Source of the DNA: Crambe crambe | Taxonomy: Eukaryota > Porifera > Demospongiae > Poecilosclerida > Crambeidae | NCBI GenBank assembly: GCA_963924555.1 | Contig: OZ004581.1 | Coordinates: 5,061,338-5,125,337, forward strand | DNA: 64,000 nucleotides | Reading direction: 5' to 3' | Part shown: positions 1-59,200 of the stretch, one piece after another | How the letters are laid out: each line of letters starts with the position of its first letter | Numbering within the stretch: position 1 is the stretch's first letter | Notes under the pieces: generated by a model | Seen by the model: the letters and a program-made list of their open reading frames with translations, nothing else | Databases searched by the model: none | Told to the model about the DNA's origin: nothing | Translations under genes and position numbers: made by a program

Positions 1-49
1 ATTTCTAATTTTGCTAGTTCTACCTTCATACCTTTGAACATGCTTGCAG

Positions 50-562
50 CCTCCTCCATCATCTTATCAGCAACCTCCTCAACCATCTGACAAGGTGCCC
101 CATTCCAAGGTGAAAACATGCACTTCCATAGGGGGAGGAAGGTCATCTATTTTGGGTGGGCTGAGTGTAAAAAAGTGTGACCATACTAGCACGCAAAGCG
201 TGCCATCTAAGGGGGTCTGGGGGTATTTTGGATTTTAAGCCTCGCATTCTCTGAGGTTCTAGGGTGATGTCTCAAATATTGAGGGGGCTCAGCCCCCACC
301 TTCTGAACATTGGGGGGGGGGGGACTTTAGCCCCTCCAGCCCCCACCTTCCGCCTCCTATGACTTCTAATTTTGCTAGTTCTGCCTTCACTTTGAACATG
401 CAGCCTCTGGATCCCCCACCACCCTATCAGCAACCACCTGACAAGCACCCCCATTCCAAGGTAAACATGTATTTCCAATTTAGTTCTGTTTTTAATATGC
501 AGCCTTCTCTATCACCCTATCAGCAACCACTTCAACCATCTGACAAGCAGCCCCATTACAAG
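50..562 (+). repeat. Triplicated proline/glutamine-rich exon with its intron
   Basis: Three exons of 60, 57 and 60 bases (50-109, 404-460, 503-562) encode near-identical peptides built around YQQPPQPSDK and ending PHSK or PHYK. Each is bounded by AG and GT and is phase 0 on both sides, so copies can be added without breaking the frame. The upstream intron ends are also alike (TTTGCTAGTT before copies 1 and 2), so whole exon-intron units were duplicated. They form a flexible N-terminal stretch ahead of the USP Cys box. Confidence 0.75.
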
Positions 563-3500
563 GTCCATAGTTATATCTCAGCCAGTCTAGACTTTATAGT
601 GTATAGCTAATACTTCAGAAGTTTTGTGGAATTCCCAATAAAGAGAACAGCTGCTGGTTGATATCAATTGTTCAACTGCTGAATACAACAAGTTTATATC
701 AATTCCTTTATGGTAAGTGTATTTATCGATGAGCCATTTGTGATAATAGTGTGATGTTATTAATTATAAGGAATGAAAAATATGAATCAAGTTCAGGCTG
801 AGTATTGCAGAATTTTCAAAGCATTGAAGTGTCATCAGTCTGTCAATATTCTACTTTTGAAGGTGTGGAAGGTCATATTGATGTATGTAATGATCTTAGG
901 TATAATCATTTATAGTCCATGCTCAAGCCAAGTCTTGCTAATTGTCATCATCAGGACGCTGCAGAGGGTTTGCAATCATTAACAGGCCATTTGGTTGAGA
1001 GCATTGATGTAAGTTATTGTATAGGAATTCACTCACTTATACATAGCTAATATGTAGCTATAAATGCAATTCTTTTACACATGATGATGACAGGAATACA
1101 AGTGTGACAGACTGTTTACTACATCTTATTTGACTCAATCCTATTGTACCTTTTGCCACAATGGAGGAACTCGTGAGGTATAATAATAATAATAATATAA
1201 ATGATTTTAACCTGATCCTTTAGTTCATTGATGGAGTATTGGAAAAGAATCCAATCCTTTATTGTTCGCTCGGTAATAGCCGGAAAGAAATCACTGTAGA
1301 AGATCTGATTATGTTTGATCATAACATTGATAGAGTCATAAAAGGACCAAGTGATAGGTAACAGCTATACTTGAAATTTAGTACATGCAGACTTGTTTGT
1401 ACAATCTATGGTGTATAGACAATGTTCGATCTGCCGAAACTTGGGAGGAATTCATGTATCTTCAAAGCTTAAAACTCTGCCAGAGTATTTGTCTATAGTG
1501 TGTAAGAGAACTTTAATCTATGGAAGAAAACGATCAGGACCATCCAAGCGATCTAATAGACAAGTCATTATTCAGAGGTGCTTGAATAATCATAGTTTGA
1601 CACTAATAGCTAATATGCATATGTATTACACTGTACAGGAACATAAAACTAAAGCTTGATGGTAGGACTATCGAGTATCAATTACAAGGATTTATTGTAA
1701 GTTTCTTAATGAGTATTGAAAAGAGATTATAGCGATTATACTGCAGGTACATCATGGTACTACAGTAACAAGTGGTCACTGTAAGATTGAATATTACTAA
1801 CATTGAATGAATAACTGCATAATTTGTCTTCAATATTCACAGATGATACTTATCTGACTCAGCAAACCTGTTCTTCTTTGGTCCACATTAATGATTTACA
1901 TATTTCAGAAGTGGAAGGCAATACTATTGACTCTACATATATCAAGGTAGCTATAATGAATGTTATTATACTAAGTAACATTAGTTCACTCAAGTGTTTT
2001 AATGCACCTGCACGAGGATGATGCTATAATGCTCGAGATGAGCTGAAGCATCATTCGATGCATTAAAACACATGGAGCTAGATCTAAACAATTTTAGTGT
2101 TGATCACATGACTTTGATCCAATCAAATTCCACCCTAGCTTTACACACATTGGGTTCAGTAAGAATGCTCAAAATTAAAGTTCCTCAAGTGTGCATTAAA
2201 TAGTGCAAATTTAAAGCACATTTTTCAGAGAATCTGATGACCAGCACTAATAGCATGTACATGTGTTAATTATAATCTACGAGTTAAATTTGGCGATGTA
2301 TTAAATTTGATGGTTTGGTGGTCCATCTGTCCAATATCCACCAATATCTATAGATAGCTCTATAGGGCTAGGGGCCGGGGGTGAGGCTTGAGTGTATATT
2401 GTGGAACTATGAGCTGCACACAAGACTACATAATAGCCAGCTAGCTCCGATTCCAGCGTCTCTTTGAGAGTTCTTGAAGAAGGAGGAAGTGAGCAGGCAG
2501 CTGACATCAATCTAAGAATGTTGCCAACTGCGTATGCAAAAATAAAACTCCCAAAATTAACTCCTATATGGTATATCACACTTACTACTCTTATTAGTTC
2601 TGTTAGTTAAGCAGATTACTAAAAGCCTAATTTATTCTGCAGAGAAATGTGGTAATCCTACTATACTCGACCTTGGAAACTTCAGTGAGTGCATTCTTAG
2701 AAAGCTTACAATCCACTTATTGCATTCCTTTTGGTGTTCTTAATTAAAGGTACATATCTTGGAAGTTGATGACAATGATTTTTCACCAGAGTTAAAGGTG
2801 AGCTAGCAGTCCAAAATCCAGCTATTTTTATTCTTCTTCTATATATGTAGGAGTTCAGCATAATCATACCAGATAAGAATGTAAGGACAAGTGGCTATAA
2901 CTTTAGTTCTTAAAATTACAATACTACAGCAGTTGCATACTGAAACTTTGAGTGATCCACTGCTGGAGCCTAGCTTGTGGCGATTGAATGATGGTCAATG
3001 GCTTGATGATATTGTGAGTTGTACTGTAACCTAAATTTATGATAATTACTTGTTACCTCATTTAGATCATTAATAAGTATTTTGCACTATTGAGCCGTGA
3101 AAATGATGCTGTAAGTCCAACGCATTTGCTGTTATGAGTTGTATAATAATAATTAGCTGTGAATAGCTACAAATCGCAGCAGCAAGTACATTCTTTGGTA
3201 TTTCTTTGATGAAGGATGGATATAGAGGTGCAAAGAAATATTTCCCAGAAGTAAAATGAATTTTACTTATAATAATTGATTATGATCATTAATTTTTTTA
3301 TCATTGTCAAGAAAAATGTTTTTAATAAAGATGTAGTTTTAATTCCATGGCATCTTAACAATTCTCATTGGATATTGCTGGTAATTGAAATGTACTATCT
3401 AGCTGATCTATAATTATTGTGACCGATATGTATATAGGTTGTGAAACCACAAGAAAAACTTATTATTTTTATGGATTCATCGTTGGAGCTATCTAATCCT

Positions 3501-4973
3501 AAAATAGAGAATTTAATATGGCAAGTAGCTAACCAGCCAATAAGGCTTCAAAATTATTATTAAATAATTGGCAGGTATTCTATATGTGAATTGAGTAAAG
3601 ATTCTGGATGTGAAGTGGATCAAACAAAGTGGAGGAGATGGAATTCACATGTAATAATAATACCATTAGCTAAGAATGATGTTAATTGTTACTAAGCAGA
3701 GTATGCCACTTCAAAAGAATACATCAGATTGTGGGATCTTCATATGCATGGTAACTCTTATTATACCTAATAGTAATAGTTATAATACATAACTGATAAT
3801 TATTACAGGCTGCTCGCTTTATGGCAATTGGTGAGGTTCCTTCATTTTCTCAGGTTGGTATCATTAGCCAAGAATGTTGATATTGTTTAGCCATTTATCT
3901 TTTAGACTGATATTCCTCATTTAAGAAGAGTGATCCATGAGGAGTTGATTCATGGAAAACTGTTACCAATAAAGTTCAAAGATGGTAAACTTTGATTCTT
4001 GAATCCTGCATACTAATTATGCTGTCTATTAGATTTAGATTTAAGTGATGAAAAGTCTGGTAGTCCCTCGATACCATTGAAGCAGATTAATATTCCTTCA
4101 GAATACATATTTCCTTCTTTCCATCAAAGAAAAAACATTGAAGATGAAGATGATGTCTTTATATTTGATCATAGAACAGTCAAGGAAATATGGTTTGATG
4201 TAGCTAAGACATACTTCCGTGAGCACAGAGATCCTATCATTTCAGATCGGTAAATAAAGTAGGTACTTACATGAAGGGGGCTTATGGCACAATAATTGAA
4301 GTTACGTTTCAACAAAGCTTGGTTCTATAAGCCAGAGGCCCTTTTCTTGGGTACTTCATTAGTTACGTTACATGATGGAATGAGGATTATGACATCCTTG
4401 ATTATAGTGACTGTATATTCAAAAGAGAGTTTGTGAGGAGAGTACTGAAAGAAAATGAAGTAAGTTCATAATAAATTGTACACCTTGATCATAACAGTCA
4501 CCATGGCAGGACTTATGGAGGAAAATTGTCAGTGGAAAAATTCGTAGCCCTTACAGTGTCAATCCAACTAAGCAATTGAAGAGGAAAATAATGACACAAT
4601 GGCCCATAGAGTTGAATGACTTGGTAGAGCAAATAGCTATAGTTTAATTAGCACGTTAATAATTATACTAAATTACGTTGCAGGGATTTGAAGTAGAGAC
4701 ATATCTGAAAGCACTCCAGTGTGATGTACAGAACGTGAAAATGATCACAGGTCTCCAGATAGCAGAATATATTTTATGGCCAGAGGTAAACTCAATTTTA
4801 TGAACTTACATAATATATTCATCAAATTTTACTGTACATACTTAATTATGCAGGCAATGGTTCTCCTTTTGAGTAAATTGCTCAGTATCGACAGGAGAGC
4901 AGCCAAGAATATTTATGATAATCATGATAACGATAAATTACAAACTTTGATTATAAAGAAGCTAGCTAACTAA
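50..4973 (+). CDS. Spliced USP-Ulp1 (C19-C48) double protease gene, 3' part
   Basis: Seen: a chain of small exons with GT/AG borders joins in phase: 50-109, 404-460, 503-562, 646-712, 771-862, 955-1008, 1094-1177, 1224-1350, 1391-1577, 1639-1696, 1747-1780, 1843-1946, 2643-2684, 2750-2797, 2851-2880, 2930-3013, 3066-3110, 3167-3250, 3312-3380, 3438-3520 (GC donor), 3575-3650, 3700-3750, 3809-3853, 3906-3984, 4033-4249, about 4302-4350, 4385-4459, 4510-4623, 4684-4785, 4854-4973. The gene starts left of the window. USP marks: Cys box NSCWL (Cys 652-654), QDA-like DAAEGL, two CxxC zinc pairs (YCTFC, QCSIC), LPEYLSIVCKR, SGHY (His 1777-1779), IND (1887-1895). Ulp1 marks: NNSHW (His 3366-3368), FMDSS (Asp 3474-3476), PLQKNTSDCG (Gln 3712-3714, Cys 3730-3732). 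The C-terminus (4033-4973) is unrecognised. Family knowledge: USPs remove ubiquitin; Ulp1/SENP enzymes remove SUMO or related modifiers. Both triads look intact. The exon 1224-1350 donor and the exon near 4302-4350 are the least certain joins. Confidence 0.8.
1947..2642 (+). other. Long intron with a small hairpin repeat
   Basis: This is the only long intron of the USP-Ulp1 gene (about 700 bases against the usual 50-90). It splits the end of the USP domain (STYIK) from RNVVILLYS. It holds an inverted pair at 1995-2070 (TGTTTTAATGC and its complement), probably a small MITE. A 92-codon minus-strand reading at 2301-2579 has no recognisable motif and is not called as a gene. Confidence 0.5.
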
Positions 4974-5774
4974 CTAATGAAAGTTATGTTTCTACAGGCC
5001 CATAGCACCCATGATTGAGATGCACCTCGTTGCACTGCCTCTGTATTACCATGCTCTCAAACGGCTCCCCAAAATAATCCATCGAAGAGTGGTGGCCAAA
5101 AGCACCAATGTCTCGATGGCCACTGGTATAAAGGTATGGCATGGTTTGGGGAAAGGCTAGTGTACTTCTGTTGCTTTCCCAATGCTTCACCTAGGCCCTG
5201 AAGGGGCATATAATTATATCACAGCATGTCAGACAAGCAGGTGCCCTAGTCTCGCTAGCCAGCTGCACTTGTGCATGCGACTACAGATGCCCATCGTGCC
5301 AGTGATATTCCATCTTGCCTCTTTCCAACAGTTCTCATCAGGCCCATTGACTATAGTCTGGAAGGAATGTGGGCTGAGACAGCCGAGGGCATGTCTTCCC
5401 AAAGCATCCACATTGGCAGTATAGTGGTGTGGACCACAGATTGCAGTGCCCAGGTACAGCAATTTCAGGCCCAATGCAAGTGATTGGTAAGGCATGCAAC
5501 CAAGCACCAGAGTCCTTAGTCGAAACTGAGCAGTAGCTAGTTGCAGAGTTTTATGATTTGCACTTTAGCCGTCTCAAAGTCACCGTCACCTTTGAGGGGG
5601 TTACACCACTAATCACCAGATGACAGAAATCTGTATAAGAGCAGACAGCAGTGGCAATGTGTTCGCATCTGACTGCAACATGTCCTTCAGGTGTTGTCCT
5701 GTCTGGTCTCCAGCAGCACACCCACTCTTTTGCTATGTCTTCTGTCTTCTGTAGAGATCCAGCTGAACTGAACT

Positions 5775-5805
<31 letters not shown>

Positions 5806-6179
5806 ATACAGTAATCAGGGTGGACTGATGGATGTTTGGACTGCTCGTTATGCTCAGCTAAAACATCCTCTAAAATCACCTTCAACTACATGGACACTCT
5901 GCAGGCCAAATCCTTTAGATGGTCTGCTGCACTTTATGAGGTGGTCTTTCATCCACAATCTGCTCCCTTACAATGCTGGCCAAGGATTGCTTGTTTGAAA
6001 CCTCTGTCTACCTCTTTGTCTCAACGTGTGACAGTGAGGCACCCTCAGACATCTTGCCCCAAACTGAAACAGCTATAGCCTATTATTGTGATTTATATAC
6101 ATATACCTACAAGGTAGTTCTCAGACTGATTTTTTTCCCCAAGCTAGAAATACTAAATTGAGGAGCTAGTTAACAATCT
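4974..6179. other. No gene recognised; decayed sequence with a 30-base G run
   Basis: Short overlapping open frames occur on both strands at 4984-5507 and 5651-6161, but none carries a motif I recognise and frames change often. It may be an old element. A run of 30 G lies at 5775-5804; such runs can be slippage-prone or mis-assembled. Confidence 0.4.
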
Positions 6180-6605
6180 GAAAAATCCCTCTAATTCATC
6201 TCCTATTACGTGTCATTCAGTTCAACTGCAACCAGGTTGGGTTCCCTCAAACTAGATCCATCTCCAACTCCCACAGACAGACAGTACTATTTCAACAGAC
6301 TGCCTAGACTATTCCACTCTCTGCCACCAATTGATATAACCTTAGGTGCTCCTACCATCAAATCCAAACTCAAAGATTACTTTTGGTCAGTTTTTCTGAG
6401 AAGTTTTGAAGCTAGTAACATGTAGTTACACTCCATCTTGTTGTCAAAACTGTATGTCAAGTCCCAAGCCGCCCAATTATATAATTCTATGCTCACATCA
6501 CATCACATCAATAATCAATCTCTTTGATTGTTCATTTTTTATTGTCTTTTTAATCCTCTCCTGGTCGCCAGGCCAGTCCTGGTGGACCCTCAGCCTGCTC
6601 TAATT
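6180..6605 (+). mobile_element. 3' end of a non-LTR retrotransposon (LINE)
   Basis: The reading at 6210-6425 has the typical C-terminal tail of LINE ORF2 proteins: YYFNRLPRLFHSLPPIDI, then IKSKLKDYFW, and just after it a frame with a Cys-rich end (CSYTPSCCQNC). The T-rich sequence to 6605 fits a 3' UTR. Only the tail is present, as expected from 5' truncation, and the Cys-rich end lies in a different frame, so the copy is dead. The exact clade cannot be set from this piece. Confidence 0.65.
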
Positions 6606-6756
6606 ACTCCATCTTCTTTTTTGTTATCTTATTTCTTAAACGTCATCTTGTGCTGTAAATCTTTAATTAATTTCAGGAAGTTACTACATACTTGCTGAGC
6701 TATAGCTATACTTGGCCAGAGCTGGCTACTTTGGCCTCCATAGACAAAGCTGGCTG

Positions 6757-6915
6757 GGGTCCCCATATCTACGCAGGGGTCCCCATATCTACCGTAGATA
6801 TGGGGACGGAGGTTCCCATATCTGCGTAGATTTAGGGACGGGGATCCCCATATCTACGTAGATTTGGGGACGGGGATCCCCATATCTACGTAGATTTGGG
6901 GACGGGGGTCCCTGA
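6757..6915. repeat. Short tandem repeat with internal dyads (about 33-bp unit)
   Basis: Four to five copies of a unit with the core CCCCATATCTACGTAGAT followed by TGGGGACGG. Each unit is itself nearly palindromic (ATCTACGTAGAT). It abuts the left edge of the Harbinger element. No coding potential. Confidence 0.7.
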
Positions 6916-7708
6916 AATAGGGGGTCCCCAAAACATTATGACACCGGGTTCAATCCGGATTCAATCCGGATACAAGGTCTGTCCACACGCTTTTTTGTGG
7001 GAGTGGATTAGCTAAGGTGCTCAACATTTAGAATTATGCAAGAAGATAACTGCAAGGAGGATCCTAGGACTGTTTGATGGTGTTTGGTGGAGGATCGTGA
7101 TGGATCTTGAGAGAGTGACACTAACTAAAGTAAGCTCTAGCATAGATATAAGATGTTTACGGGATTGGAAACGGATCACGTGCTCTCGTTAGCAACTAAC
7201 AACCGAGGCGCGTTGACAGCTGAATGACATAGCACTTTTGTCAAAGTTGCTGTTCTGACAAGATCCGTGAGGTAAGACTTATGCCAATGATACTATAATA
7301 CACTAGGGCATAGATTTACTGTATGAAATAAATTTCAGCTCAGATTTTCAAGTTTATTCCTACAAATACTACTGTGGTGGTTAATGGGACTGTAATCCCT
7401 CTCACGCTTGATGGAATCAATTGCTGTTGCCCATTTTCTGATCAAAAGGCATGTAAACTTTAGCTACGTACATGGAATAGTAATGTTAGTTTTTGTATTA
7501 GCTGACATATATTGTCTCTAGCATTTGCAAGTGGTGTTAAAACTGTAATCCCTCTCCCAAGAAATAGATTAACAATATTGCAACTGTATTAGTGATTTCA
7601 GGGAAAGGATAGAACAGTAAATGGAATTGGTGCATTCGTTTTCTATACAATAATCATCCTCAATAGAATTAGTTCTCATAAAATTAGCTTATGAAACAAA
7701 CCACCAAC

Positions 7709-7739
7709 GTTTCGACCAGAATACTCTAGCCTTCATCAG
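7709..7739 (-). ncRNA. Hammerhead-ribozyme-like core, left arm
   Basis: The exact inverse copy of the right-arm core: CTGATGA, the same 7-bp stem and GAAAC on the minus strand. Both strands of this repeat would therefore carry the motif near the base of the hairpin. Confidence 0.4.
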
Positions 7740-8034
7740 GGTGATACAAAAAATGCACACAGAAACGTCCTTATATAGCTAGCTACGTATTATATTATAG
7801 CATGCCAATACCTGAAGTCGTAAACACTATTTCCCTAAGGCTTTAAGCGTAGAAACCCAGCAACCTTGAAGTTCTAGACCTACATCCCTACGCTTAAAGC
7901 CTTAGGGAAATAGTGTTTACGACTTCAGGTATTGGCATGCTATAATATAATATCCATAGGCGTATGCATGTGCGTTGTCTAGATAACGAGCGTAGCTATA
8001 TAAGGACGTTTCTGTGTGCATTTTTTGTATCACC

Positions 8035-8065
8035 CTGATGAAGGCTAGAGTATTCTGGTCGAAAC
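8035..8065 (+). ncRNA. Hammerhead-ribozyme-like core, right arm
   Basis: CTGATGA (8035-8041) is followed by a 7-bp stem (GGCTAGA with TCTGGTC, two G-U pairs, loop GTAT) and then GAAAC (8061-8065). This matches the conserved hammerhead order CUGAUGA, stem II, GAAA. Known: such ribozymes occur in Penelope-like and other retroelements. I could not assign stem III and the cleavage triplet with confidence, so activity is unproven. Confidence 0.4.
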
Positions 8066-9031
8066 GTTGGTGGTTTGTTTCATAAGCTAATTTTATGAGA
8101 ACTAATTCTATTGAATTTTTATCATGTTAGCTGAGAATAAGCAGAGAATAATCATCCTATGGAGATGGCAAGCTTACTATATTTCCCCCCTAATATCCAT
8201 AGGGTCCACAGGACAGCTGACTGAGCCGAATTCTTGAGATGGATGGTGTCAAAATCCAACAGCCAAAAGCTGGAAGTATTGCAATAATGCTGATGAGGGC
8301 GAACTGAGCAGAAACTGGCGGATAACTTTGGGGCAAAATTATCTAGCTATAATAATAATGAATTTATGTCTAATTTTAATACCAAAAGTCATTCTGGCCT
8401 TTCTTTCAAATCAATCACATAAAATTAATGTATAATGAGTAATGATAGGTACTCATAGTTATAATTACAAGGAAAAAAGTTATGAATAATTAATAACTTC
8501 CTTCCTCAGACTCTCCAACTTCAACTCTCTGACTCTTCACTTCTTCAATACCTTCCCCTTAGCTTACTTGTACTATTCTGTGAGCTGTAGGGGCAGAACA
8601 TCACTTTAACTGCCTTGAAAGGAGTGAATATTGATCTCCTTTCACGGCCATTAATATAATTAATGCTGCATGCGCGTGCGCATCTGTCAACGCGCCTCGG
8701 TTGTGCAGTTCATTGGGCGTTTCCAATCCCGTAAAACCTCTTATATCTATGGCTCTAGTTAGTATACGTTTAGAAAGCATGCGCATAAGGTGATTCCTTG
8801 GCAACTGTAGCTACTGTACTATTAGAAAATCTGCTCGCTGGTACACGGTTGACATTTTAGCTGAAGATGGAAGGCTTTCTCGAGTATGTAGTGTTTAATA
8901 TGGCAAGGAAGCACAGGCAAAAGTCCACAGACAAATTGATTGAATATAAAAAAAAGCAAGAGCAGTACGGAGAAAGCAATTTGCTAAAAGACAAGCCCAG
9001 GAATTCACACTATTTATAACCCTGGTAACTG

Positions 9032-10087
9032 ATGTCTTCTCTGCCTGTGTTCTTGCCAAGAATGGTATGGATGAGAAAAAGAAGTGGCCATTGGTGGGAA
9101 GAAATAGTAAAACGATTTACACCACAAGATTGGTTGAATAATTTTCGTGTGTCACCTGCCACATTTCAATACCTCTGTACGGAACTGAGCCCATATATAT
9201 CCAGAAAGGACACTATTATGAGGAAGGCAATAGAAATGGAGAGAAGACTAGGCCTTGTTTTATGGTTTTTGGCAACCGGAGCAGATTTTAGGACTATTGC
9301 TCATCTTTTTGGGGTGTCTAAATCCACAGTTTCCCTGGCTATCAAGGAAGTGTGTGAAAGCTTAGTGAAGCATTTGCTTCCTGTGTATATTCAAGTACCA
9401 ACTGGAAATGCCCTCAAGGAGGTGGTTGATGGTTTTCATGTTAGCTATGGTTTTCCTCAGTGCTGTGGTGCAATCGATGGAACACATATTCCTATAGTTT
9501 CTCCAAATGAATGTCCAGCTGACTATTACAACAGAAAGGGGTGGCATTCCATCCTAATGCAGGGTACAGTGGACCACAAAGGTCGATTTATAGATATTTA
9601 TGTTGGTTGGCCAGGTCGAGTGCATGATGCCAGAGTGTTTGCAAATTCAAGTTTATTCAAGAGGGGCCAGAGTAAAACTTTGCTTCCCAACTGGGTGAAA
9701 AGTATATCTGGCAAAAATATTCCTTTAGTCTTCCTTGGTGATCCTGCATACCCTTTGTTAGATTGGCTAATGAAGGCATTTCCCGACAGTGGTAACCTTA
9801 CAGCTAATCAGAAGTGGTTCAACTATTGCTTAAGTAGAGCTAGAGTTGTGGTTGAGCATGCTTATGGCAGGTTGAAGGGAAGGTGGCAATGCTTGATGAA
9901 AAGGTTGGATGTTAGTGTGTGTGATGTGCCTGAGTTAGTAGCTGCTTGCTGTGTTCTACATAATGTGTGTGAGGTTCATGGTGACAGATTTAACAATGAG
10001 TTGAAGATACGCATGGGTCCAACTCATCATATCATCCATCTCTTCAACCTGGAGAGAATGCTGTTAACATTAGAAATGCACTTATGA
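9032..10087 (+). CDS. PIF/Harbinger DDE transposase, apparently full length
   Basis: 351 codons, unbroken. The DDE triad sits in the usual Harbinger contexts: GAIDGTHI (Asp149), FLGDPAYPL (Asp237) and VVEHAYGRLKGRW (Glu275), with spacings of 88 and 38 residues. The N-terminal part has WLNNFRVSPATFQYLC and a helix-turn-helix-like AHLFGVSKSTVSLAI (about residues 95-110). Length fits the family (about 350-450). It cuts and pastes the element together with the Myb/SANT partner encoded convergently next to it. The first ATG of the frame is used; a short upstream exon (8925-9020) is possible but unsupported. No break is seen, so the copy may still be active. Confidence 0.92.
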   Translation: MSSLPVFLPRMVWMRKRSGHWWEEIVKRFTPQDWLNNFRVSPATFQYLCTELSPYISRKDTIMRKAIEMERRLGLVLWFLATGADFRTIAHLFGVSKSTVSLAIKEVCESLVKHLLPVYIQVPTGNALKEVVDGFHVSYGFPQCCGAIDGTHIPIVSPNECPADYYNRKGWHSILMQGTVDHKGRFIDIYVGWPGRVHDARVFANSSLFKRGQSKTLLPNWVKSISGKNIPLVFLGDPAYPLLDWLMKAFPDSGNLTANQKWFNYCLSRARVVVEHAYGRLKGRWQCLMKRLDVSVCDVPELVAACCVLHNVCEVHGDRFNNELKIRMGPTHHIIHLFNLERMLLTLEMHL

Positions 10088-10175: not shown

Positions 10176-11483
10176 TTACTGATCATAATAGTTATCACTG
10201 TACTCAAAGGGATTTGAGGAATAACCTCTCTGGAATATCTGCCCCATCATTTGTAGCATCCTCAATTCATGCTCTCTATCCTCTTTCCTCCTTTTCTCTT
10301 CCAATTCCATTTCCTTTTTCCACCGTTCTTCTTCCTGCTTCTGAAATCTTTCTTCTGCTTCACTCTGATATGCTATAAAGGCATCTATAGCTCTGTCTAT
10401 GTTTTTCTCTGCTCTGCTTTTTTTTTCTATTTTTCTTTTTTTGCTACATGGTGCTCCTGTACACATTATAGCAAAATAAGTACATGAAAGGAATTTATCA
10501 CATATTTTCCTCACCCTTAGATTCACTATCAGCAGTATCACTTGAAGTGGTGGGCATGAGTGCAGCATCAATTGGTGACTCTGCTTGAATATCAGCTCCT
10601 TCTGTGAGCACATTTAAAGTTAGTTTACCAATAATTACTAGGTTGTTCAATTTTGGGTTTCTTATGTAGTTATTCAGGCATCCCTAAAAGGAGCACAGCA
10701 GTCATTAGGAGGGGCGTAATATCAAGAGCATGTTAACATTCCCAATCCTTGTGAGCTCATGGGTTGACAGAATAATAATCCTATGTGACTTCACTAGGGT
10801 ATGTTCGTGTAACATTCTATTGGTAAGCAGAGCAACATACTCCTGTCTCAAAGTTTCATATTTGCTCTGTTTTCTAATTTCTTTGATCAAGCCCTGGATT
10901 TCTGAGGCAAATCTAGCAATGATGTTGAACTGACGTATTGCTATATTTTTTCCCCCCATTACAGTAATATGATTAGAGAATGGCTCACTTCGCTCTCTTA
11001 ATTACTATACAAGCCCTCTCCCATCTTAAGGCAGGAAAGGGCTTGTATGACGACTGGCATTACAAATTAATATAATATACCATTTATTTCAGAAGTTGTC
11101 TCCTGTGGGCTATCTTGATTGCCAGTGTCCAGAATAACAGCTGGGACTGATGCTGGCCGATGTCCAAGAATGGCATCAAGTTCATCATAAAACTTGCAAG
11201 ATTTTCTTCCCCTTCCAGTCTCTCTGTTGTTATCTTTCACTACTCTGTACTGCTTTTTTAAGTTCTTTATCTTATTTTTGCACTGTTCCCAGTCCCTATC
11301 ATAACCTATTTCATTAATTTTTTTTGCTATCTTAAGGAATATTGTTTTATTTCTGACAGCACCATCAAGTTCATCCTGAATGTTCCTTTCTCCCCATATT
11401 GCTATCAATGCCTTTACCTCTTCATCTGGCCACAAATTTCCTCTGCTAGCCGTTGCAGACTGTTCAATACTAGTAGTACTCAT
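10176..11483 (-). CDS. Harbinger Myb/SANT-like (trihelix) DNA-binding partner, 3 exons
   Basis: Exons on the minus strand: 11483-11081, 10601-10515 and 10456-10176. All joins are phase 1 and give 256 residues ending YSDNYYDQ. The N-terminal part is a trihelix Myb/SANT domain: LWPDEEVKALIAIW, then YDRDWEQCKNKIKNLKKQYR, with a GRKSCKFYDELDAILG third helix. Exon 2 is acidic and Ser/Thr-rich. Exon 3 is basic then a charged coiled coil (EEERWKKEMELEEKRRKE). Known: this protein helps nuclear import and target binding of the Harbinger transposase. It is intact and convergent with the transposase gene, 88 bases apart. Start chosen at the ATG opening MSTTSIEQS; an in-frame ATG lies nine codons earlier. 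Confidence 0.85.
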
Positions 11484-11699
11484 GATGTAAACACTTAAGT
11501 TACAAACCACAGCTGTACAGTAGCTTAATCCAGATACAGCTGTTTACACGTACAATTTAACCGCTTAATCCGGATTCAATCTACATCAGAATGTAGGTTG
11601 AATCCGGGTTGAGTTAATCCGGATAATTGGTGTTTACACGTATCCACTTATACGTTAATCCGGATTGAATCCGGATTAAAACCCTCGTGTAAACGGGAC

Positions 11700-14658: not shown

Positions 14659-14799
14659 TATTATGCTGAGCATCGTGCACGCATTGGTGCTGATAGGAGG
14701 CGAAGGTATGAACTTACTGAGCCTAAGCCTCTTACTAAACAAAACTATATCAGAGAAATAACCCAAAAATTAATAAGTAATAGTCATGCCTCTAGACAA

Positions 14800-17700
14800 A
14801 TGCTGCAGTCCTTTAAAGATCAGCATGAAAAAATAGCTCTTAAAATGACTGCAGCAACCTCTAGACGAGCTGCATCCTCTATAGCAGCTACAAGGCTGGT
14901 GAACAAGGTGTTGCAGATACGAAGGCATCTAGCTGGCTCCTTGTTAAAAATGGTAAGAGCAATTAATAAACTAAGCATATCTACTGAGAGTGATTTGGGT
15001 GAGGGTTCACATTGTGTTCATGGTGAACCATATTATTATGAAAGTTCCTATGTTCATAATAGACCAAGCATTATTTGTATTGATGAGCATGGAAAATATA
15101 GATTGCTTGATGACAAAAATACCGTGGAGCATGTGGTTCCACGCTCATGGAAATGCAATGACACATGGACTCTATCACAATCCGATTTGTCATGCATTAT
15201 TGAATTCAAATCAGCATTTAACGAGTCCCTGCAGAAAATACGTAAAGTTTTGGATGAGTGTGATGAATGTCCAAATAGCAAGTATGCTAAGGTAATCATT
15301 GTCCCAGCAAATGAGCCTGATAGTAACGTAGTACACTATAACTCTGTGGAATTAAAGGGACATAGTTTGATCTGTCACATTGGCAGTGATTGCAAAAGTA
15401 AGCTGAGAATCCTAAGAGCAGCATCGACTCACTATCCTGTGTTGAGGTCGTTCTTAAAATGTGTGTACTCAGCATTAAATAGCCATAAAAATATTGCTTC
15501 CCTTGATGAAGCTGTACACCGTGGAGACTTTAACAGCTTAATGAGGGATTTTGAAATCACCTTTGATGATCTATTCAGTAATGAAGTCAATCTGTCTCAT
15601 GAGCTTGAAAGTAGTTTTGCAACATGTGTGCTTAGAAGACCAGATTTAGAAAAGCACTTTCAAATAGAGCACGCCAAAGTGATGGCAAAATATAAAAAAG
15701 AATTAGAAGATTATCCTCAGAATCCTTGCTGTAGCTGTAATATGCTCTTTTGTCTCAAGCAAGGCTCAAAAATTACTTTCAGTACAGAACTCGGCAACGT
15801 GTGGCCGGATTTAAAAGATTTCATCCTTAAGGATGACCCTAATGCTTCAAAAAAGACTCTGTTCATATGCACGTATTGCAGGTCTTATTTGAGGTCCAAT
15901 AAAATGCCACCAAGATGTGTGCTCAATGGTTTACAAACCTCTCCAATACCCAGAGAGCTGAGCGTGTTGGATGAGTTGAGCAAACAGCTCATTCAACGAG
16001 CGAAAGCTTTTCAAACTATAGTCAGGTTGGGCACTTATACAAACAAGGTGCCATCCTACAATTCGCTTAAAGCCTGTAAGGGTAACATGTTTTTCTTACC
16101 CCTACCCCTGGACAAGACTCTAGAGACTCTTGATGGGGTTGAAGGATCTCTTGCTAACCCTGAACTTTACATTATAGTGAACAGTAAGCCCACCAAAGGC
16201 AATGTAGTGTGGCGAAGCTTAGTAGATGTAAATCAGGTAAAGGCTGCTATCAAGAAGTTAAAAGAGTGCAACTGGCTCTACAAAGATGTCTGCGATGAAT
16301 CTGTAGACTCTGCTGCCAAGGAGGTTATTGAAGTGGTAAGTAATACCTCTAGTACTGTGCTGGAAAAAGCCTCAAGTAGTGATATTGCTGGGTTCCAGTG
16401 CTACACACTGAGAGATATGAATGACAAACTCTCCACCAAAGATGACCTACAACAATATAAAATGCTAAGCGTGCAAGAGGAACCTTTGAGTAGCACTCAA
16501 AGGCACCTCGATACCATGTGTTTCCCAGTCCTCTTTCCGGACGGAAACTTTGGTAAGTACCACCCTAGACAGGTGCCAGTATCCCACAGCGAATACGATA
16601 AGTCCCGTCTGTGGAACAGTGACTCTCGCTTTAGAAAAGACCCTCAGTATGTCTTTTATCTCCTAAAGGAGAAGGAGTCAAGGGAGTTAAAAGCTGGTGT
16701 GTATAATTTGCTTAAGACATCAAAATCCATTCCCACAACAGTGACTAACATTCTCCAGAAGGTCACAGCCAGTGATCAAAAACTCGAAGCTAACCTGTCC
16801 ACTATGTTTCAGTCCATTCGTGGCACAAAACAGTATTGGTACAGGAGGAAGGGTGAATTAATGTGCATGTTGCGGGAACTGGGGCCTCAAAGCCTATTCC
16901 TAACCTTCAGCTGTGCAGAATATGAGTCACCTGACATAGCTGAGTACCTAAAAATTGTCAACAATGTTCCAGACAAATACAGCATTAATAAACTCTGCAC
17001 TGAGGATCCTGTTTCGGTATCGAGGCAGTTTTCTCACAAATTTCATGCCTTCTTTCAGGCATTCATTGTAAAGGGTGAAGTCCTGGGTCCAGTAGAGCAC
17101 TTTTACTGGAAAAAAGAGTACCAGGCACGTGGAGCACCACACTATCATGCGGTTCTATGGATAAAGGGTGCACCAATTATAGGTAAAGATGATCCAGATG
17201 TGGTGCTGTCCTGGATTCAGGAAAGAATCACTTGCCACATTCCTGACAAGGAAAACAATCCAGAACTGCACCACATGGTTACAAGGTACCAGTTGCACAA
17301 GTGCAGCGATTACTGTAGAAAGAAACGCAAGCGTGGGTCTGTGTTTCTAACTACGTGCAAGTTTGGATTTCCACGTCCAGAGAGAGAAAGTGCTGTTATA
17401 AATAATGTAGATTCCAGCTGTAAAAAATTTCAAAAAATTTATGAAATAGCACGAGCACCTAGCGAAGTAAGAGTTAATGATTACAATCCCTTGCTTCTTC
17501 TGAACTGGGGGGCAAACATGGATATACAATTTGTGGGTGACAGGGACATGGTTGTATCCACTTATGTCAGTGGATACTTTACCAAATATGAGCATGGTCA
17601 CCTGCAAGAGCAGTATGAGGGCATTACAGATGATAAGAGCCTATGCAGCAAGCTTTTTAGCATTGGCCGCATGGTCTTAAAATCTCGTGAATGCGGAATG

Positions 17701-20700
17701 CATGAAGCTGCTGACCACTTGAGTGGAGACCACCTCTATGAGAAGTCTGTTGCCATTCAATGGGTTGATGTTCGCATGCCTCACAAAAGGCAGCGTAGGG
17801 TAAAAACGCATGCCCAGCTGTTAAAAATGGAATCGGAAGATCCGGATAGTGAAAATATATTTACTCATAATTTCCTATCCACTTACTACCCACAAAGACC
17901 TGACGACTTGGAGGACATCTGCCTTCATGACTTTATTGCCAATTACAGCTGGCATGAAACAGACCATAAGGGGGACAGAATATACAGGAAACTCAACAAA
18001 CCTCGATTGGTCAACCACAAAATGTTTGATCCTGCAAAACAGGAAAACAGAGAAGATTACTATTACTCTCTGATTCTTCTCTTTGTACCCTTCAGAGATG
18101 AGGGTGCTCTTCTAAGAGAAAATGAAACTGCTGAAGAAGCTTTCAATCGTCTCCTGCCCCACAGTGATGATTGTTCCAATTATCACAGGAGGCTACAGAC
18201 GATGCTCAATGCTGAGACTAAGGTGAGAAAAATAAATGAAGCAAGAAAGGCAGAAATCATGAAGAACTTAGAAAACAAAGAGCATGATAACATGCAGATC
18301 CTTGGAGAGGCTAAGCATGCAATGAAGGACATACAGGACATGAATCAGAAAATGCCTGACAACCTCACTCTAGAACAAAGGGAGAACATGTTGAACGCCG
18401 ACCAGAAAAGGGTCTATGACACCATCCGTAATAGTTTGATACACCAGAAACAACATGAAGAGGGCCAGTGTCTCTGTGACTACAAGCCCTTTGCAATGTT
18501 TGTCAGTGGTGTAGGCGGTACTGGTAAGTCTTTCGTAATAGAGGCCGTAAAGGCATTAGTTGACAGCTTATGGACGTCAGAGGGTTTGAAGTGTGCTATC
18601 ACTGCGCCCACTGGCTTGGCTGCGTTCAATGTTGGAGGTGTGACCATACACAGGCTGTTCCAGTTGCCTATCGAACACGAGGGCAAGGAAGCTGGCTATT
18701 GGTCACTGTCAAAGGATGCTCAGAAAGTGATGAAAACGACACTTCGTTCCCTTAAGTTGCTTGTCATTGATGAAGTGTCCATGGTGTCAAGTCTAAACTT
18801 GACCTATGTGCACATGAGAATGCAAGAAATCTTTGGGGAAGATCACTGGTATGGAGGAAAGAATGTCCTCTTTGTTGGGGACTTACTCCAACTCCAACCA
18901 GTCAATGGCAACCCTGTGTTTGAAAAAATGAGTAGGGCTGCCATTGTCCACAAGTTAGGATGCATTGGATCAATAAATATCTGGAAAGACTGTGTCCGTT
19001 ATGACGAGCTCACAATTAACGAAAGACAGAAAAAAGACAGTCAGTTCTCTGATATTCTAGGTAAAGTGAGATGTGGTGGTCTCGCAAAAGAGATTCTTAC
19101 AATTCTGAAAGAGCGCGTTATTAATGTTCCAGTAGTTGAAAAGCTGGTGCAACTGCAGGAGTCGGGAAAAAATCCCGTGTGCCTGTTTCCAACCAGAAAA
19201 CAGTGTGATGTGCTCAATGAGGAAATGCTGCGCAACTTGGAGTCAGAAGTGCATGTCATACCATGCGCCGATGACGTAGACGAGACGCGAAGCACTGCAA
19301 AATGGCACCAAAAGGCAGCCAAACAACTTGAAAAGCTAAATCAGGACTGCAACAACACTGCAGGGTTGGAAGCTGTCCTGAAGTTGGCCGTGGGTGCCCG
19401 TGTAATGCTCAGGCGAAACATTGATGTTAAAGCAGGTTTAGTGAACGGTGCCATCGGCACCGTCCTTGGCGTGTTCTCAGAAAGAGTTTCAATCAAATTT
19501 GACCACTTAGAGAGCACCTGTGATATTGAAAAAATAAAGGGAAAGTTCATGGTACTTAAGAGTTATTATGTGTCCCGTACCCAATTTCCTTTAATCTTGG
19601 CCTATGGGGTTACCATCCATAAATGCCAGGGCCTGTCGTTAGACTGTGCTATCGTAGATCTGTCAGACAAGGTATTTGCAGATGGGATGGCCTATGTAGC
19701 ACTCTCAAGAGTGAGGTCTCTAAATGGACTGTACCTGACTGCATTTGATGCACAATCCATTCGGGTAAGCAAAAATTGTGTAGCAGAAGTAAACAGGTTG
19801 AGACAATTGTTTAGAAAAGATCTCCCTCTTTATGAAACTCCAACTGCATGTGTCTCCAGAAAAAGAAAGCTCACCGGCACGTGTGATGTGGAGCCACAAT
19901 CAAAAAAGATATGTGGTCCCACAACGAAAAAGCTTCAGCCTGAGCCTAAGTCAAAATCAGCAAGGTCTCAGTCTCGCCAGAAGAAAGTATGGCCGTTCAA
20001 ATTCCACTCTGTGGATGAACAGTGGCAACGTACTGCTTGCCACTCACTGAACATAATTTTTAAGCAAAAAAATACAATATTTCAGGGAAGTGGGGAAAGA
20101 CCGCTGACACGTCCAGACATGAGAAGGGTGAAGAGAGTTAAGGGTGATGGAAATTGCATGTTCCGAGCCCTCTCTCTAGTGGTGACTGGGAGTGAAGACC
20201 AGCATCATGCCATTCGTACTAGAATAGTGGAGCACATGAGAAGTATTGCCCACCTCATGCTGGGACACATCAAGAGTCATACTGGTTTTAATACTTGCCA
20301 GAATATTGATGAGTACTTGCAGAAAAGCAAAATGGCTGAATGTAACACTTGGGGATCCGACATTGAATTACTGTGCTTTGCACACTTATGTAAAGTATGT
20401 GTGTTCTCTTATTCTACAGAATCAAGCAACTGGGACAGATATGGTCCCAATAATGTTGACAGAACAATAACTGTAGATGTGACCGCAAAGTCCATATACC
20501 TGTTTCACCCTTCTGGCCATTATGATGTAGTGGGATCCACTCTAAAGCCTCCAAACTCTACACCAGACTGGTTGGAACAATCCAGAAACACTGAGGTATG
20601 GAATGATCTAAGGTTTCACTCTGTTGACTCAGAGTGGCAGTTGGAAGCTTGTAATTTACTAGGCTTGCCATTACACGGTCCAAATGGTGTGAGCCCAGGT

Positions 20701-21150
20701 GGCCCCAATTTAGCCATAACACGTCCTGCTTCTTATAAATCAATCCAAGGAGATGGTAATTGTCTGTTCAGATCCCTTTCATACCTAATAACAGGCTCAT
20801 GTTGTCACTACAGAGAAGTCCGTGAAAGAATTATAGACCACATGCGAAATGTATTTGAGCCGGTTTATGTTAGTGATTATTTAAGGAGCACTAACATGGA
20901 CCAAGATGGGATTTGGGGGACTCATAATGAAATTACAACTCTCTCACATTTACTGAGAACCCCAATATATACTTTTGTGCCTGATTCACATAACTGGGTC
21001 AGAATAACTCCTGAGGCAATGGATCAGGACTTTATCATTCCAATGACGCAAAAGGCAATGTATTTAGAGAATCACAGGAATCATTTCAATGTGGTTATGA
21101 CTGTGAAACCAATCCCTAATATTAGTAGTGACCCTATCGAAATAGATTAA
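14800..21150 (+). CDS. Helitron Rep-helicase with two C-terminal OTU domains
   Basis: 2116 codons, unbroken. Order by residue: Cys-rich region (about 304-370, CCSCNMLFC and CTYC pairs); Rep/HUH nuclease with PHYHAVLW (His781, His783) and a Tyr-bearing YVSGYFTKYE; SF1 Pif1-like helicase with Walker A GVGGTGKS (1237-1244), LLVIDEVSM, LFVGDLLQLQP and YGVTIHKCQG; OTU 1 with GDGNC (Asp1783, Cys1786) and His1907; OTU 2 with GDGNC (Asp1985, Cys1988) and His2095. The two OTU units share the lead FHSVDxxWQxxAC, so they arose by internal duplication. Known: Rep nicks and joins for rolling-circle transposition and the helicase unwinds; OTUs are deubiquitinase-type Cys proteases found in some animal Helitrons. 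The frame is open upstream to the TAG at 14656, so the true start is probably 13975. Confidence 0.93.
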   Translation: MLQSFKDQHEKIALKMTAATSRRAASSIAATRLVNKVLQIRRHLAGSLLKMVRAINKLSISTESDLGEGSHCVHGEPYYYESSYVHNRPSIICIDEHGKYRLLDDKNTVEHVVPRSWKCNDTWTLSQSDLSCIIEFKSAFNESLQKIRKVLDECDECPNSKYAKVIIVPANEPDSNVVHYNSVELKGHSLICHIGSDCKSKLRILRAASTHYPVLRSFLKCVYSALNSHKNIASLDEAVHRGDFNSLMRDFEITFDDLFSNEVNLSHELESSFATCVLRRPDLEKHFQIEHAKVMAKYKKELEDYPQNPCCSCNMLFCLKQGSKITFSTELGNVWPDLKDFILKDDPNASKKTLFICTYCRSYLRSNKMPPRCVLNGLQTSPIPRELSVLDELSKQLIQRAKAFQTIVRLGTYTNKVPSYNSLKACKGNMFFLPLPLDKTLETLDGVEGSLANPELYIIVNSKPTKGNVVWRSLVDVNQVKAAIKKLKECNWLYKDVCDESVDSAAKEVIEVVSNTSSTVLEKASSSDIAGFQCYTLRDMNDKLSTKDDLQQYKMLSVQEEPLSSTQRHLDTMCFPVLFPDGNFGKYHPRQVPVSHSEYDKSRLWNSDSRFRKDPQYVFYLLKEKESRELKAGVYNLLKTSKSIPTTVTNILQKVTASDQKLEANLSTMFQSIRGTKQYWYRRKGELMCMLRELGPQSLFLTFSCAEYESPDIAEYLKIVNNVPDKYSINKLCTEDPVSVSRQFSHKFHAFFQAFIVKGEVLGPVEHFYWKKEYQARGAPHYHAVLWIKGAPIIGKDDPDVVLSWIQERITCHIPDKENNPELHHMVTRYQLHKCSDYCRKKRKRGSVFLTTCKFGFPRPERESAVINNVDSSCKKFQKIYEIARAPSEVRVNDYNPLLLLNWGANMDIQFVGDRDMVVSTYVSGYFTKYEHGHLQEQYEGITDDKSLCSKLFSIGRMVLKSRECGMHEAADHLSGDHLYEKSVAIQWVDVRMPHKRQRRVKTHAQLLKMESEDPDSENIFTHNFLSTYYPQRPDDLEDICLHDFIANYSWHETDHKGDRIYRKLNKPRLVNHKMFDPAKQENREDYYYSLILLFVPFRDEGALLRENETAEEAFNRLLPHSDDCSNYHRRLQTMLNAETKVRKINEARKAEIMKNLENKEHDNMQILGEAKHAMKDIQDMNQKMPDNLTLEQRENMLNADQKRVYDTIRNSLIHQKQHEEGQCLCDYKPFAMFVSGVGGTGKSFVIEAVKALVDSLWTSEGLKCAITAPTGLAAFNVGGVTIHRLFQLPIEHEGKEAGYWSLSKDAQKVMKTTLRSLKLLVIDEVSMVSSLNLTYVHMRMQEIFGEDHWYGGKNVLFVGDLLQLQPVNGNPVFEKMSRAAIVHKLGCIGSINIWKDCVRYDELTINERQKKDSQFSDILGKVRCGGLAKEILTILKERVINVPVVEKLVQLQESGKNPVCLFPTRKQCDVLNEEMLRNLESEVHVIPCADDVDETRSTAKWHQKAAKQLEKLNQDCNNTAGLEAVLKLAVGARVMLRRNIDVKAGLVNGAIGTVLGVFSERVSIKFDHLESTCDIEKIKGKFMVLKSYYVSRTQFPLILAYGVTIHKCQGLSLDCAIVDLSDKVFADGMAYVALSRVRSLNGLYLTAFDAQSIRVSKNCVAEVNRLRQLFRKDLPLYETPTACVSRKRKLTGTCDVEPQSKKICGPTTKKLQPEPKSKSARSQSRQKKVWPFKFHSVDEQWQRTACHSLNIIFKQKNTIFQGSGERPLTRPDMRRVKRVKGDGNCMFRALSLVVTGSEDQHHAIRTRIVEHMRSIAHLMLGHIKSHTGFNTCQNIDEYLQKSKMAECNTWGSDIELLCFAHLCKVCVFSYSTESSNWDRYGPNNVDRTITVDVTAKSIYLFHPSGHYDVVGSTLKPPNSTPDWLEQSRNTEVWNDLRFHSVDSEWQLEACNLLGLPLHGPNGVSPGGPNLAITRPASYKSIQGDGNCLFRSLSYLITGSCCHYREVRERIIDHMRNVFEPVYVSDYLRSTNMDQDGIWGTHNEITTLSHLLRTPIYTFVPDSHNWVRITPEAMDQDFIIPMTQKAMYLENHRNHFNVVMTVKPIPNISSDPIEID

Positions 21151-56213: not shown

Positions 56214-59200
56214 TGTAATGTTCTCACTCTTTTAGCTAAGCTACCAAAACTATAGTTTGAACTTTTGTTGTAATCTGATTATTCTCGAGAAAAAGGTTAT
56301 ATAAAAATGAGTAACACGATTAACAAAAAACCACATCCACATTTTATCATAACTAATTAATAATTACAGTTCATATAGTTCCATACATCACATCTCCTCC
56401 ACCCTAATATCTACTATTGCGCGGTCCATAGTAAGTAAACCTGTTAGGGGGATTCACAGTACGAGTGGGTCTGGTGTAACCACTGGTGTCAGCCACTAAG
56501 GGCCTCTCTGGTTCTGGAGTAACGATTGCATTCGGACTTTGAAAATATGGTTGCATGGAAGTATTAACACTGTTTGGCCACCCAGTTTTAACATACTGTA
56601 GCACTTTTGCGAGAATAGGGTTCTTGTGGGTACTCTGGGCCACCTGTTTGACAGTGACTTGTATATCTTCTACAGTAGTTTGCAGAACAATTGTCATGGA
56701 TCAGGCAGGGATAGGTGGTGGCCTTGAAGTATTTGTGGCTTGGGAACAATAAAATGTTTTTATAGTCCTATCGTTCTTAGCCACTAGCTATTGCCTATAT
56801 CTGCCTTATGCATGACAACTGTTCTGCAAACTACTGTATTTGCTTCAGCTGCAAAAGAGAAACACTACTGTCACTAACCCACTCTCCTTGCCCTTGTGGT
56901 AACCTAGACAAAGCATGGAATTTCCAGATTCCCCAAACAATACTCATGCTTCTCTCTCAATTTGCGAATAATTCTTCTCAGCTTTCATTAAACTTCTCGA
57001 TGCATATGCCACTGGTTTCTCTGTTCCATCTGGTTGTATGTGTGATAAAACTTCTCCTATCCCTACTGAAGAGGCATCACAATCCAGCTTCAGTGGTGCA
57101 GTAGGGTCATAATACCCTAGCTGACACCAGATCTTTCTTCAGCGTCAGAAATGCCTTCTCCTGTTCCTGACTCCACTTCCAGGGAATTCCCTTTTGGCGC
57201 AGTTCCCATAATAATTAACCATGCCTAAAAAGATTGCAGTTGCTCCACACTTTCAGGCGTTGGTGCAGCCACCAAAGTGGTCACTTTTTCTTCCACTGGG
57301 TGGATCCCCTTTCTGGTGATTACATGCCCTAAATATTGTACGGAATCTTTGAAAAAGGCGCACTTACTCAGCCTAGCTCGAAGGCTAAACTGACTTCTTC
57401 CAAATTTTGGAAGTGTTCTTCATCTGTGGTACCACTATCGTCTAGGTACCAAACCACTTGTGGTAATCCTTGCATTATGCTGTCCATAATACCTTGAAAT
57501 ATGGCTGGACTTGCTGCTATTCCGTAAGGTAATTGACTCCATTGAAAAAGTCCCTTATGGGTATTGATGGTTGTCAACTCTCGTGACTGCTCATCCAGGG
57601 TGACTTGGTTGTATGCCTGAGCTAAATCAATCTTTAAGAATTTCTTTCCTCCATTCATAACTTGGATGTTGTTGGACTTGCAAACGGGGATTTAGTGTGA
57701 CTTTGTAGTCACCACAAACTCGTACAGTTCCATCAGGTTTGGCCACAGGGACTACTGGCGTAGCCCAGGAGCTATATTCCACTTTCTCCAAATTTCCTTC
57801 TTGGACCATTTTCTCTATGGCTTCGCCCAACTTTGGTTTCAATGTAAATGGAACTTGCCTTGGCTTGCAAAACTTTGGCTGTACCCTCTCCTTCAGATTG
57901 AGATGTGCTTGGATGTCTTTCAATCGGTCTAAACCTGTCTTGAATACGGTCTCTTCGTACTTCTTCAACAATCATTCCAGTCTCTCTGAAGTATTTTGCT
58001 CATGCACAGCACTAACTGGCTGCTGCTTTAGCGTTTCAAACCAGTTGTCTCCAAAGAAAGCTCTTATCCAGTCCCTTCTAAACAAGGAAGGGCAGTTCCT
58101 TTTGGCCACAAAAATGGTGAGATCTTTTGTCTTCCCTTAATAGAGCTTTGACTTTGGCCTGTCCCACCAATTCCAGCACTTGACCTGTGGCTGATTTCAA
58201 GACCTTGTTAGTCTTCTGGGTCTGGACTCGTAAAACATTTTCTGACACTACTGTGACTGCTGCACCGGTATCCACTTCCATAATCATCGATTCCCCATTC
58301 ATGTTCACATCGATCATGAACCTGTCTTGCAGTGATTTGATTTGGTTTTCCTCTAGCCCATTGAGTTGTAATAGGATATCTGTTGGCTCTTCCAGTTCTT
58401 CCAATAGCTTTTGCTTGACTATGTGTTCTTTGGGTTTTTTTCCAAGAAACATGCACTGGCTATGTGGCCTTTCTTGTCACACTTGAAACACTCAGCTTCA
58501 GTTCTGAGGCTTATGGCCCTTCTTGCCACAGCGATGACAGGTATTGGCACTGCCTTCAGCTTGCGTTCTTCGTCCTTTTCCTTTCTTCCCAGTTAGGCCA
58601 CGAAGCGTATTCATGCTCTGACTCTTGGGTAACTGCATTACCGCAGTCTCCTTGCCTGCAGCTTCCATCGCTACAGCAAGCTCACAAGCCTTTTCGACCT
58701 TCTTGATTAGAAGTCTTCACTTCGTAGCATCAAAGAACAATCTGCAAACTAATCTGTCTCTCAATGCTTGTTCAAGAAAGTTTTCAAACTGAGAGTCCTT
58801 GGAGAGCGAGCGCAGAGCTGCCAAATACTCGAGCACGGTTTCTCCTTGTCTCTGATTTCGCTGATGGAATCGGTACTGCTCGGCAATAACAGTTGGTTTG
58901 GGCTGGTAATGTTCCTTTAGTTTCTCTTGAAACTTTTAGTATTTGGCTGGTCAGGTGCAAATAATGCTCGTAGGAGCTCATAGTTCTTAGTGCCTACTTC
59001 ATTGAGTAAGATCGCTACCTTTCTTTTAGCATTGTCTATCGCATTGGCTATAAAAAATTCTGACATTCTCTCGGCATAGGAAGTCCACTGCATTGTAGCA
59101 GGATCATATGGACCTGGAGCACCCACTATACTCGTCGCCATTGTAATGTTCTCACTCTTTTAGCTAAGCTACCAAAACTATTGTTTGAACTTTTGATTAT

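Follow-up and report, generated by a model that had tools for sequence, protein, structure and literature searches.

A USP (C19) domain and a Ulp1/SENP (C48) domain in one intron-rich exon chain of the sponge Crambe crambe

SUMO-targeted ligases place ubiquitin and SUMO marks in combination, whereas the enzymes that erase them are separate proteins in the reviews consulted. In mammals, the erasing of both marks is divided: USP11 trims hybrid SUMO-ubiquitin chains (PMC6987259; PMC11088880), and SENP3 and USP7 work in associated silencing complexes (PMC10777863). A fusion is the outcome to be expected if such pairs merged. The roles of hybrid chains are called largely unknown in PMC6987259 and PMC10919355. 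Here, we describe an exon chain that encodes both a USP (C19) deubiquitinase domain and a Ulp1/SENP (C48) domain, located at the left end of a stretch of 64,000 nucleotides (nt) of the sponge Crambe crambe (assembly GCA_963924555.1, contig OZ004581.1, positions 5,061,338 to 5,125,337 of the forward strand), hereafter the window. Each of the two families is old and well established, and only their joining would be new; among the matches listed in our literature search, whose coverage is partial, no C19-C48 fusion is described in a title or at the start of an abstract.

We confirmed the occurrence of the two domains in a single exon chain, as proposed by the first-pass annotation of this DNA. 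The chain runs from 50 to 4253 on the plus strand and comprises 25 exons, selected by hand in the three-frame translation of that strand as open stretches between an AG and a GT, which splice in phase into a protein of 661 residues whose sole stop is the final codon. The phases match at every junction of the 24 introns, 23 of which are GT-AG and one GC-AG; the latter, with a GCAAGT donor at 3521 to 3526, lies in the C48 part after exon 20 and was used to preserve the frame. As for intron size, 22 of the 24 fall within 42 to 85 nt, the outliers being an intron of 294 nt between repeated proline-rich exons and one of 696 nt between exons 12 and 13. We infer that the whole chain would be carried by a single transcript. 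The features of the locus, in window coordinates, are given below.

50-109 (+): exon 1, proline-rich repeat PPPSSYQQPPQPSDKVPHSK, flanked by AG and GT, phase 0; tentative, and the gene start may be outside the window
404-460 (+): exon 2, proline-rich repeat; tentative
497-562 (+): exon 3, proline-rich repeat at 503-562; in-frame ATG at 497-499, a possible start codon
619-712 (+): exon 4, Cys box of the USP domain, GIPNKENSCWLISIVQLL; catalytic Cys at 652-654
771-862 (+): exon 5, USP domain
916-1008 (+): exon 6, USP domain, QDAAEGL
1094-1177 (+): exon 7, USP domain, first CxxC (CTFC)
1224-1357 (+): exon 8, USP domain
1419-1577 (+): exon 9, USP domain, second CxxC (CSIC)
1639-1696 (+): exon 10, USP domain
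1747-1780 (+): exon 11, VHHG and SGH of the USP domain; catalytic His at 1777-1779
1843-1946 (+): exon 12, USP domain; Tyr after the catalytic His (codon split between 1780 and 1843-1844) and HIND with the third catalytic residue, Asn, at 1890-1892
1947-2642 (+): the 696-nt intron, with no second copy in the window; short inverted repeat with arms 1991-2006 and 2059-2074 (94%)
2643-2684 (+): exon 13, RNVVILLYSTLETS, putative final USP strand and then the start of the linker
2750-2797 (+): exon 14, linker VHILEVDDNDFSPELK, with VHIL and an acidic run resembling a SUMO-interaction motif
2851-2880 (+): exon 15, linker
2930-3013 (+): exon 16, start of C48, LNDGQWLDD (equivalents of SENP1 Trp465 and Asp468)
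3066-3110 (+): exon 17, C48
3167-3250 (+): exon 18, C48, STFFG (equivalent of SENP1 Phe496)
3312-3380 (+): exon 19, C48, catalytic His (SHW) at 3366-3368
3438-3520 (+): exon 20, C48, catalytic Asp at 3474-3476, followed by the GC donor
3575-3650 (+): exon 21, C48
3700-3750 (+): exon 22, C48, Gln at 3712-3714 and catalytic Cys at 3730-3732 (QKNTSDCG)
3809-3853 (+): exon 23, C48
3906-3984 (+): exon 24, end of C48, with IHGKLL aligned with the end of SENP1 chains
4033-4253 (+): exon 25, C-terminal tail with an acidic run, TAA at 4251-4253; no Pfam match
4385-4459, 4510-4623, 4684-4785, and 4854-4973 (+): four further open exons, mutually in phase

The isolated USP domain matches the Pfam UCH profile (PF00443) over its entire length (positions 1 to 254 of 254, E 4.2e-21, 76.1 bits), and the same family is recognized in the 661-residue chain with an E value of 3.7e-20. 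Up to E 10, the chain matches UCH, Peptidase_C48, and UCH_1 only, the last exceeding its cut-off by 0.1 bit, and a search against NCBIfam gave nothing useful. In the numbering of our model, Asn66 and Cys71 occur in the sequence GIPNKENSCW, His308 in SGHY, and Asn325 in HIND, and the two CxxC pairs, at residues 170 to 173 and 227 to 230, are both intact. The catalytic roles that we assign to these residues, and to those of the C48 domain listed below, are established knowledge of the two families. The full-length UCH match, the Cys box, SGHY, ND, and the two CxxC pairs are shared with the C19 USPs; different from them, the domain of the chain is divergent, has no close relative in the PDB, and is fused to a C48 domain.

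The USP fold is also shared with USPL1, the only SUMO-specific USP known, which represents a link of this fold to SUMO. In PMC8983731, USPL1 is described as having a Phe after the catalytic His and a Tyr at the position of the conserved His, and as lacking two blocking loops. Different from USPL1, the chain has Tyr309 directly behind its catalytic His, and His299 represents the conserved His of the VH pair, aligned with the His of VHEG in USP28. Pfam includes a Peptidase_C98 model, for which no match was found among the hits up to E 10, either with the 661-residue chain or with the isolated domains. Tyr309 and His299 are as in ubiquitin USPs, and a USPL1-like SUMO specificity of the USP domain was rejected. 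Since the domain differs from USPL1 at two diagnostic positions, ubiquitin appears to be its likelier substrate.

The C48 domain matches Pfam Peptidase_C48 with E values of 1e-23 in the 661-residue chain and 1.2e-24 when isolated, and it features Trp407, His473, Asp490, Gln535, and Cys541. Both hidden Markov models on whose success the first-pass annotation had staked its reading hence find their domains, and both catalytic sets are complete, as it had judged (Cys71, His308, and Asn325 in the USP; His473, Asp490, Gln535, and Cys541 in the C48). The best PDB matches of the C48 domain are SENP1 (2.3e-23), SENP5 (7.2e-23), SENP2 (6.7e-21), and SENP3 (2e-20), followed by yeast Ulp1 (4e-12) and SENP7 (0.05), while SENP8 is absent among the 26 PDB sequences listed up to E 1. 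Judged by this ranking of E values, the domain is nearer to SENP1, SENP2, SENP3, and SENP5 than to SENP6, SENP7, and SENP8. A match to the ElaD/SseL-like_C family (E 0.0067) falls below the cut-off of that family, and a bacterial-type CE protease was accordingly rejected.

In the alignment with SENP1, 64 of 196 positions are identical. Trp465, Asp468, Phe496, His529, His533, Trp534, Asp550, Gln597, and Cys603 are kept in the C48 domain, and Arg511 and Trp512 are replaced by Lys and Tyr, respectively. Phe496, Arg511, and Lys514 are SUMO contacts of SENP1 according to PMC12687455; in the chain, the first is kept, the second is a Lys, and the third a Pro. From this comparison, in which most of the residues checked are kept and some are altered, a SUMO-type C48 domain with one changed contact region is therefore suggested. 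The domain is SENP1/2/3/5-like, with most of the SENP1 residues checked retained. What the chain has in common with these four proteases is the His-Asp-Gln-Cys set, the two Trp residues of the GlyGly tunnel, Phe496, and the end of the domain at KLL. SENPs have N-terminal regions that are variable (PMC10919355) and are not known to include a second protease, whereas in the chain an entire USP precedes the C48 domain and 79 residues follow it.

Because the exons had been picked by eye, the catalytic domain of SENP1 was also aligned to the DNA without use of the exon choices. The spliced alignment of human SENP1 with the plus strand of the window scored 178.6, compared with 120.6 when 2901 to 4100 was removed from that strand and 113.2 on the minus strand; 20 shuffled SENP1 sequences aligned to 1 to 6000 gave a mean of 77.6 and a maximum of 91.4. 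The path that scored 178.6 ends at 5094, beyond the C48 domain, and was not traced back, and under a similar scheme the hand-made exon model scores 163 (243 minus 10 per intron) against the 178.6 of the free path. This control was run with SENP1 only.

The continuity between the two domains depends on the region around the 696-nt intron. When the 22 residues encoded beyond this intron are included, the end of the UCH match moves from profile position 243 to 254 and the score rises from 73.8 to 76.1 bits, so that the USP profile ends 3' of the large intron. Exon 13 (RNVVILLY...) appears to carry the last USP strand, on the same side of the intron as the C48 exons and adjoining them. The linker between the domains measures about 50 residues and contains VHIL followed by EVDDND, which conforms to the pattern typical of SUMO-interaction motifs; with at least three acidic neighbors, and under the two patterns used, this is the unique site of its kind within the 602 residues scanned.

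On balance, and with moderate confidence, we read the locus as an intron-rich single host gene, which would encode a USP (C19), a linker of about 50 residues, and a C48 SUMO protease of the SENP1/2/3/5 type, acting as a dual eraser. We infer that both catalytic sites would work, with ubiquitin as the substrate of the USP and SUMO as that of the C48 domain. The interpretation offered by the first-pass annotation is in this sense partly supported.

Several observations weigh against this reading, and a part of them concerns the possibility that two adjacent genes, a USP and a SENP, have been read as one. The intron between the domains, with its 696 nt, is more than 10 times the usual length in the gene and contains one AATAAA (at 2541) and four ATTAAA; AATAAA also occurs elsewhere within the gene, at 637, 3324, and 3968. 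Moreover, the strand of exon 13 contributes only 2.3 bits to the USP match, and the exon can be skipped in phase because it measures 42 nt. Since the gain in bits is small, the alternative exons that could bridge the gap were also enumerated: nine open exons of 24 to 240 nt could link exons 12 and 14 without loss of phase, and exon 13 is the only one with a CAG/TAG acceptor and a consensus donor. Furthermore, no in-frame Met is found in exons 13 to 16 or in their open upstream extensions, so that a separate SENP gene would require an extra first exon; the independent start of the Ulp1 part that the first-pass annotation had considered is thus disfavored. The position of the last USP strand, in phase and next to the C48 exons, the lack of a start Met, and the splice sites of exon 13 argue for USP and C48 as one protein, and we regard two separate genes as improbable. 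A pseudogene that died only recently and whose exons still look intact would account for the repeated 5' exons and for the exons from 4385 to 4973, which are out of phase with the stop-bearing exon, but 661 codons and 24 introns free of stops and frame breaks, along with the retained catalytic residues, make it highly improbable.

Other observations against a dual eraser bear on function and origin. The USP domain is divergent, its best PDB match being a USP30-derived construct (E 4.3e-4) followed by USP28, and 13 of the 29 PDB sequences listed for it up to E 10 are unrelated proteins; in the C48 domain, two SENP1 positions are altered, with Lys514 replaced by Pro and Glu469 by Ile. As for the linker, shuffled versions give a motif of the same kind with four acidic neighbors in 100 of 5,000 cases and with three in 576 of 5,000, and since this test was devised after the motif had been noticed, the motif is to be taken as suggestive. 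None of 6 pattern matches in viral contigs and none of 31 in prokaryotic genome contigs was confirmed as a relative of the fusion; the queries were single sequences, which pick up only close relatives, and these sets say little about animals. It is possible to hypothesize a fused protein that is not an eraser of both ubiquitin and SUMO, either because one domain is weak or dead and used for binding or because both act on the same modifier; the divergence of the USP and the two altered C48 positions would agree with it, and PMC10919355 and PMC10643670 describe USPs that are inactive as well as USP or CE-clan proteases whose specificity is different or twofold. Nothing is missing, nonetheless, from either catalytic set or from the two CxxC pairs; the USP bears signatures of the ubiquitin type, and the C48 domain retains most of the SUMO-type residues that were checked. 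We deem this case unlikely. The gene could instead be carried by, or derived from, a transposon that acquired protease domains. PMC2836005 reports Ulp1 in Ginger1 and Mutator-like elements and OTU in Helitrons, and describes a C19 domain fused with a transposase in a protein of Trichomonas; moreover, a Helitron with OTU and a DDE_Tnp_4 transposase lie within the window, and a pair of poly-G-rich direct repeats of 21 nt (303 to 323 and 5768 to 5788, 86%) brackets most of the gene. This pair, which looks low-complexity, is the only bracketing repeat. Ginger1 and Mutator-like elements with Ulp1 and Helitrons with OTU resemble the chain in joining a ubiquitin or SUMO protease to other domains; different from them, the chain has many introns and no transposase or helicase, and no flanking terminal repeats were seen in 1 to 6500. 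Within this interval, which starts at the window edge and hence leaves the left flank of the gene outside, 31 pairs of inverted repeats were found, none of them long and flanking, the longest measuring 29 nt at 72% with both arms intragenic. No transposase domain was detected by Pfam in the 661-residue chain, for the sequence within the window, and no second copy of residues 1 to 644 occurs in its 64 kb; the 24 introns compare with 0 to 4 in the Ginger1 table of PMC2836005, and the C48 domain is SENP1-like (64 of 196 positions identical). A transposon origin is therefore quite improbable in our judgment, and a host gene appears likelier. The first-pass annotation had left this choice open: the lack of flanking inverted repeats and of a transposase, the introns, and the SENP1-like C48 domain now favor the host.

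The two ends of the gene deserve separate consideration. At the 5' end, the three proline-rich exons (50 to 562), placed by splice signals alone, are near-copies of one another, and the sequence upstream of the first two is partly duplicated too; we read this end of the gene (window 1 to 562) as a recent exon duplication. As the ATG at 497 to 499 is in frame with exon 3, a complete open reading frame of 624 residues from 497 to 4253 is possible, and so is a longer N terminus beyond the window. At the 3' end, the first-pass annotation had extended the gene to 4973. This limit was replaced, since an in-frame TAA (4251 to 4253) is overlapped by an AATAAA (4253 to 4258) and the later exons are out of phase from 4249: with the exon ended at 4249 the phase is 2, and no in-phase connection to 4385 through an intron of ordinary length was seen on inspection. 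The exons from 4385 to 4973 join in phase if the donor is at 4199. They may represent a longer isoform, another gene, or a relic, and they were omitted from the core model. No Pfam family above its cut-off and no PDB match above chance were found for them, and PDB searches of both tails gave nothing better than E 0.26; among viral contigs, none of 74 pattern matches was confirmed as a relative of the tail, again with a single-sequence query that finds close relatives only. With regard to codon usage, 21 held-out blocks of known exons have a mean of 0.06 bits per codon and 192 intron stretches with at most two stops a mean of -0.16, compared with 0.16, 0.13, 0.05, and -0.02 for the four tail exons and 0.20 for the 17 codons at 4200 to 4250 before the stop; this measure is too weak to decide between the 3' ends.

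Mobile elements and repeats occur elsewhere in the window. A single open reading frame of 2,163 residues at 14659 to 21147 (+) encodes a Helitron protein with Helitron_like_N, a PIF1 helicase, and two OTU protease stretches; OTU domains on Helitrons are already known (PMC2836005). At 9029 to 10084 (+), an open DDE_Tnp_4 transposase frame is found, and at 11070 to 11543 (-) an open reading frame with a Myb/SANT DNA-binding domain, a pairing also seen in Harbinger-type elements. The region 7660 to 8114 forms one large foldback, consisting of a perfect inverted repeat with arms of 122 nt (7660 to 7781 and 7993 to 8114) and a nested perfect pair of 65 nt, and 6753 to 6920 contains tandem units of 20 and 32 nt that are partly palindromic themselves. 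A piece of a retroelement aspartyl protease lies at 58081 to 58476 (-), with scores of 24 bits for gag-asp_proteas (cut-off 28.2) and 20.6 bits for RVP (cut-off 20.7).

Returning to the fused gene that we favor, its product could work on targets that bear both modifiers, for instance, SUMO chains to whose ends SUMO-targeted ligases have added ubiquitin. The SUMO moiety would be held by the SENP domain, perhaps aided by the SUMO-interaction-like motif of the linker; the ubiquitin, on the outside, would be taken off first by the USP, and the SUMO would then be removed by the SENP domain, so that both marks could be erased in one encounter. A eukaryotic enzyme that combines a working deubiquitinase, a working SUMO protease, and a SUMO-binding linker, and that is dedicated to erasing SUMO-targeted ubiquitin signals in one step, is a possibility that we put forward only tentatively from the predicted protein. 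If true, such a fusion in nature would provide direct evidence for substrates shared by deubiquitination and deSUMOylation, and it would represent a ready-made reagent for the trimming of hybrid chains.

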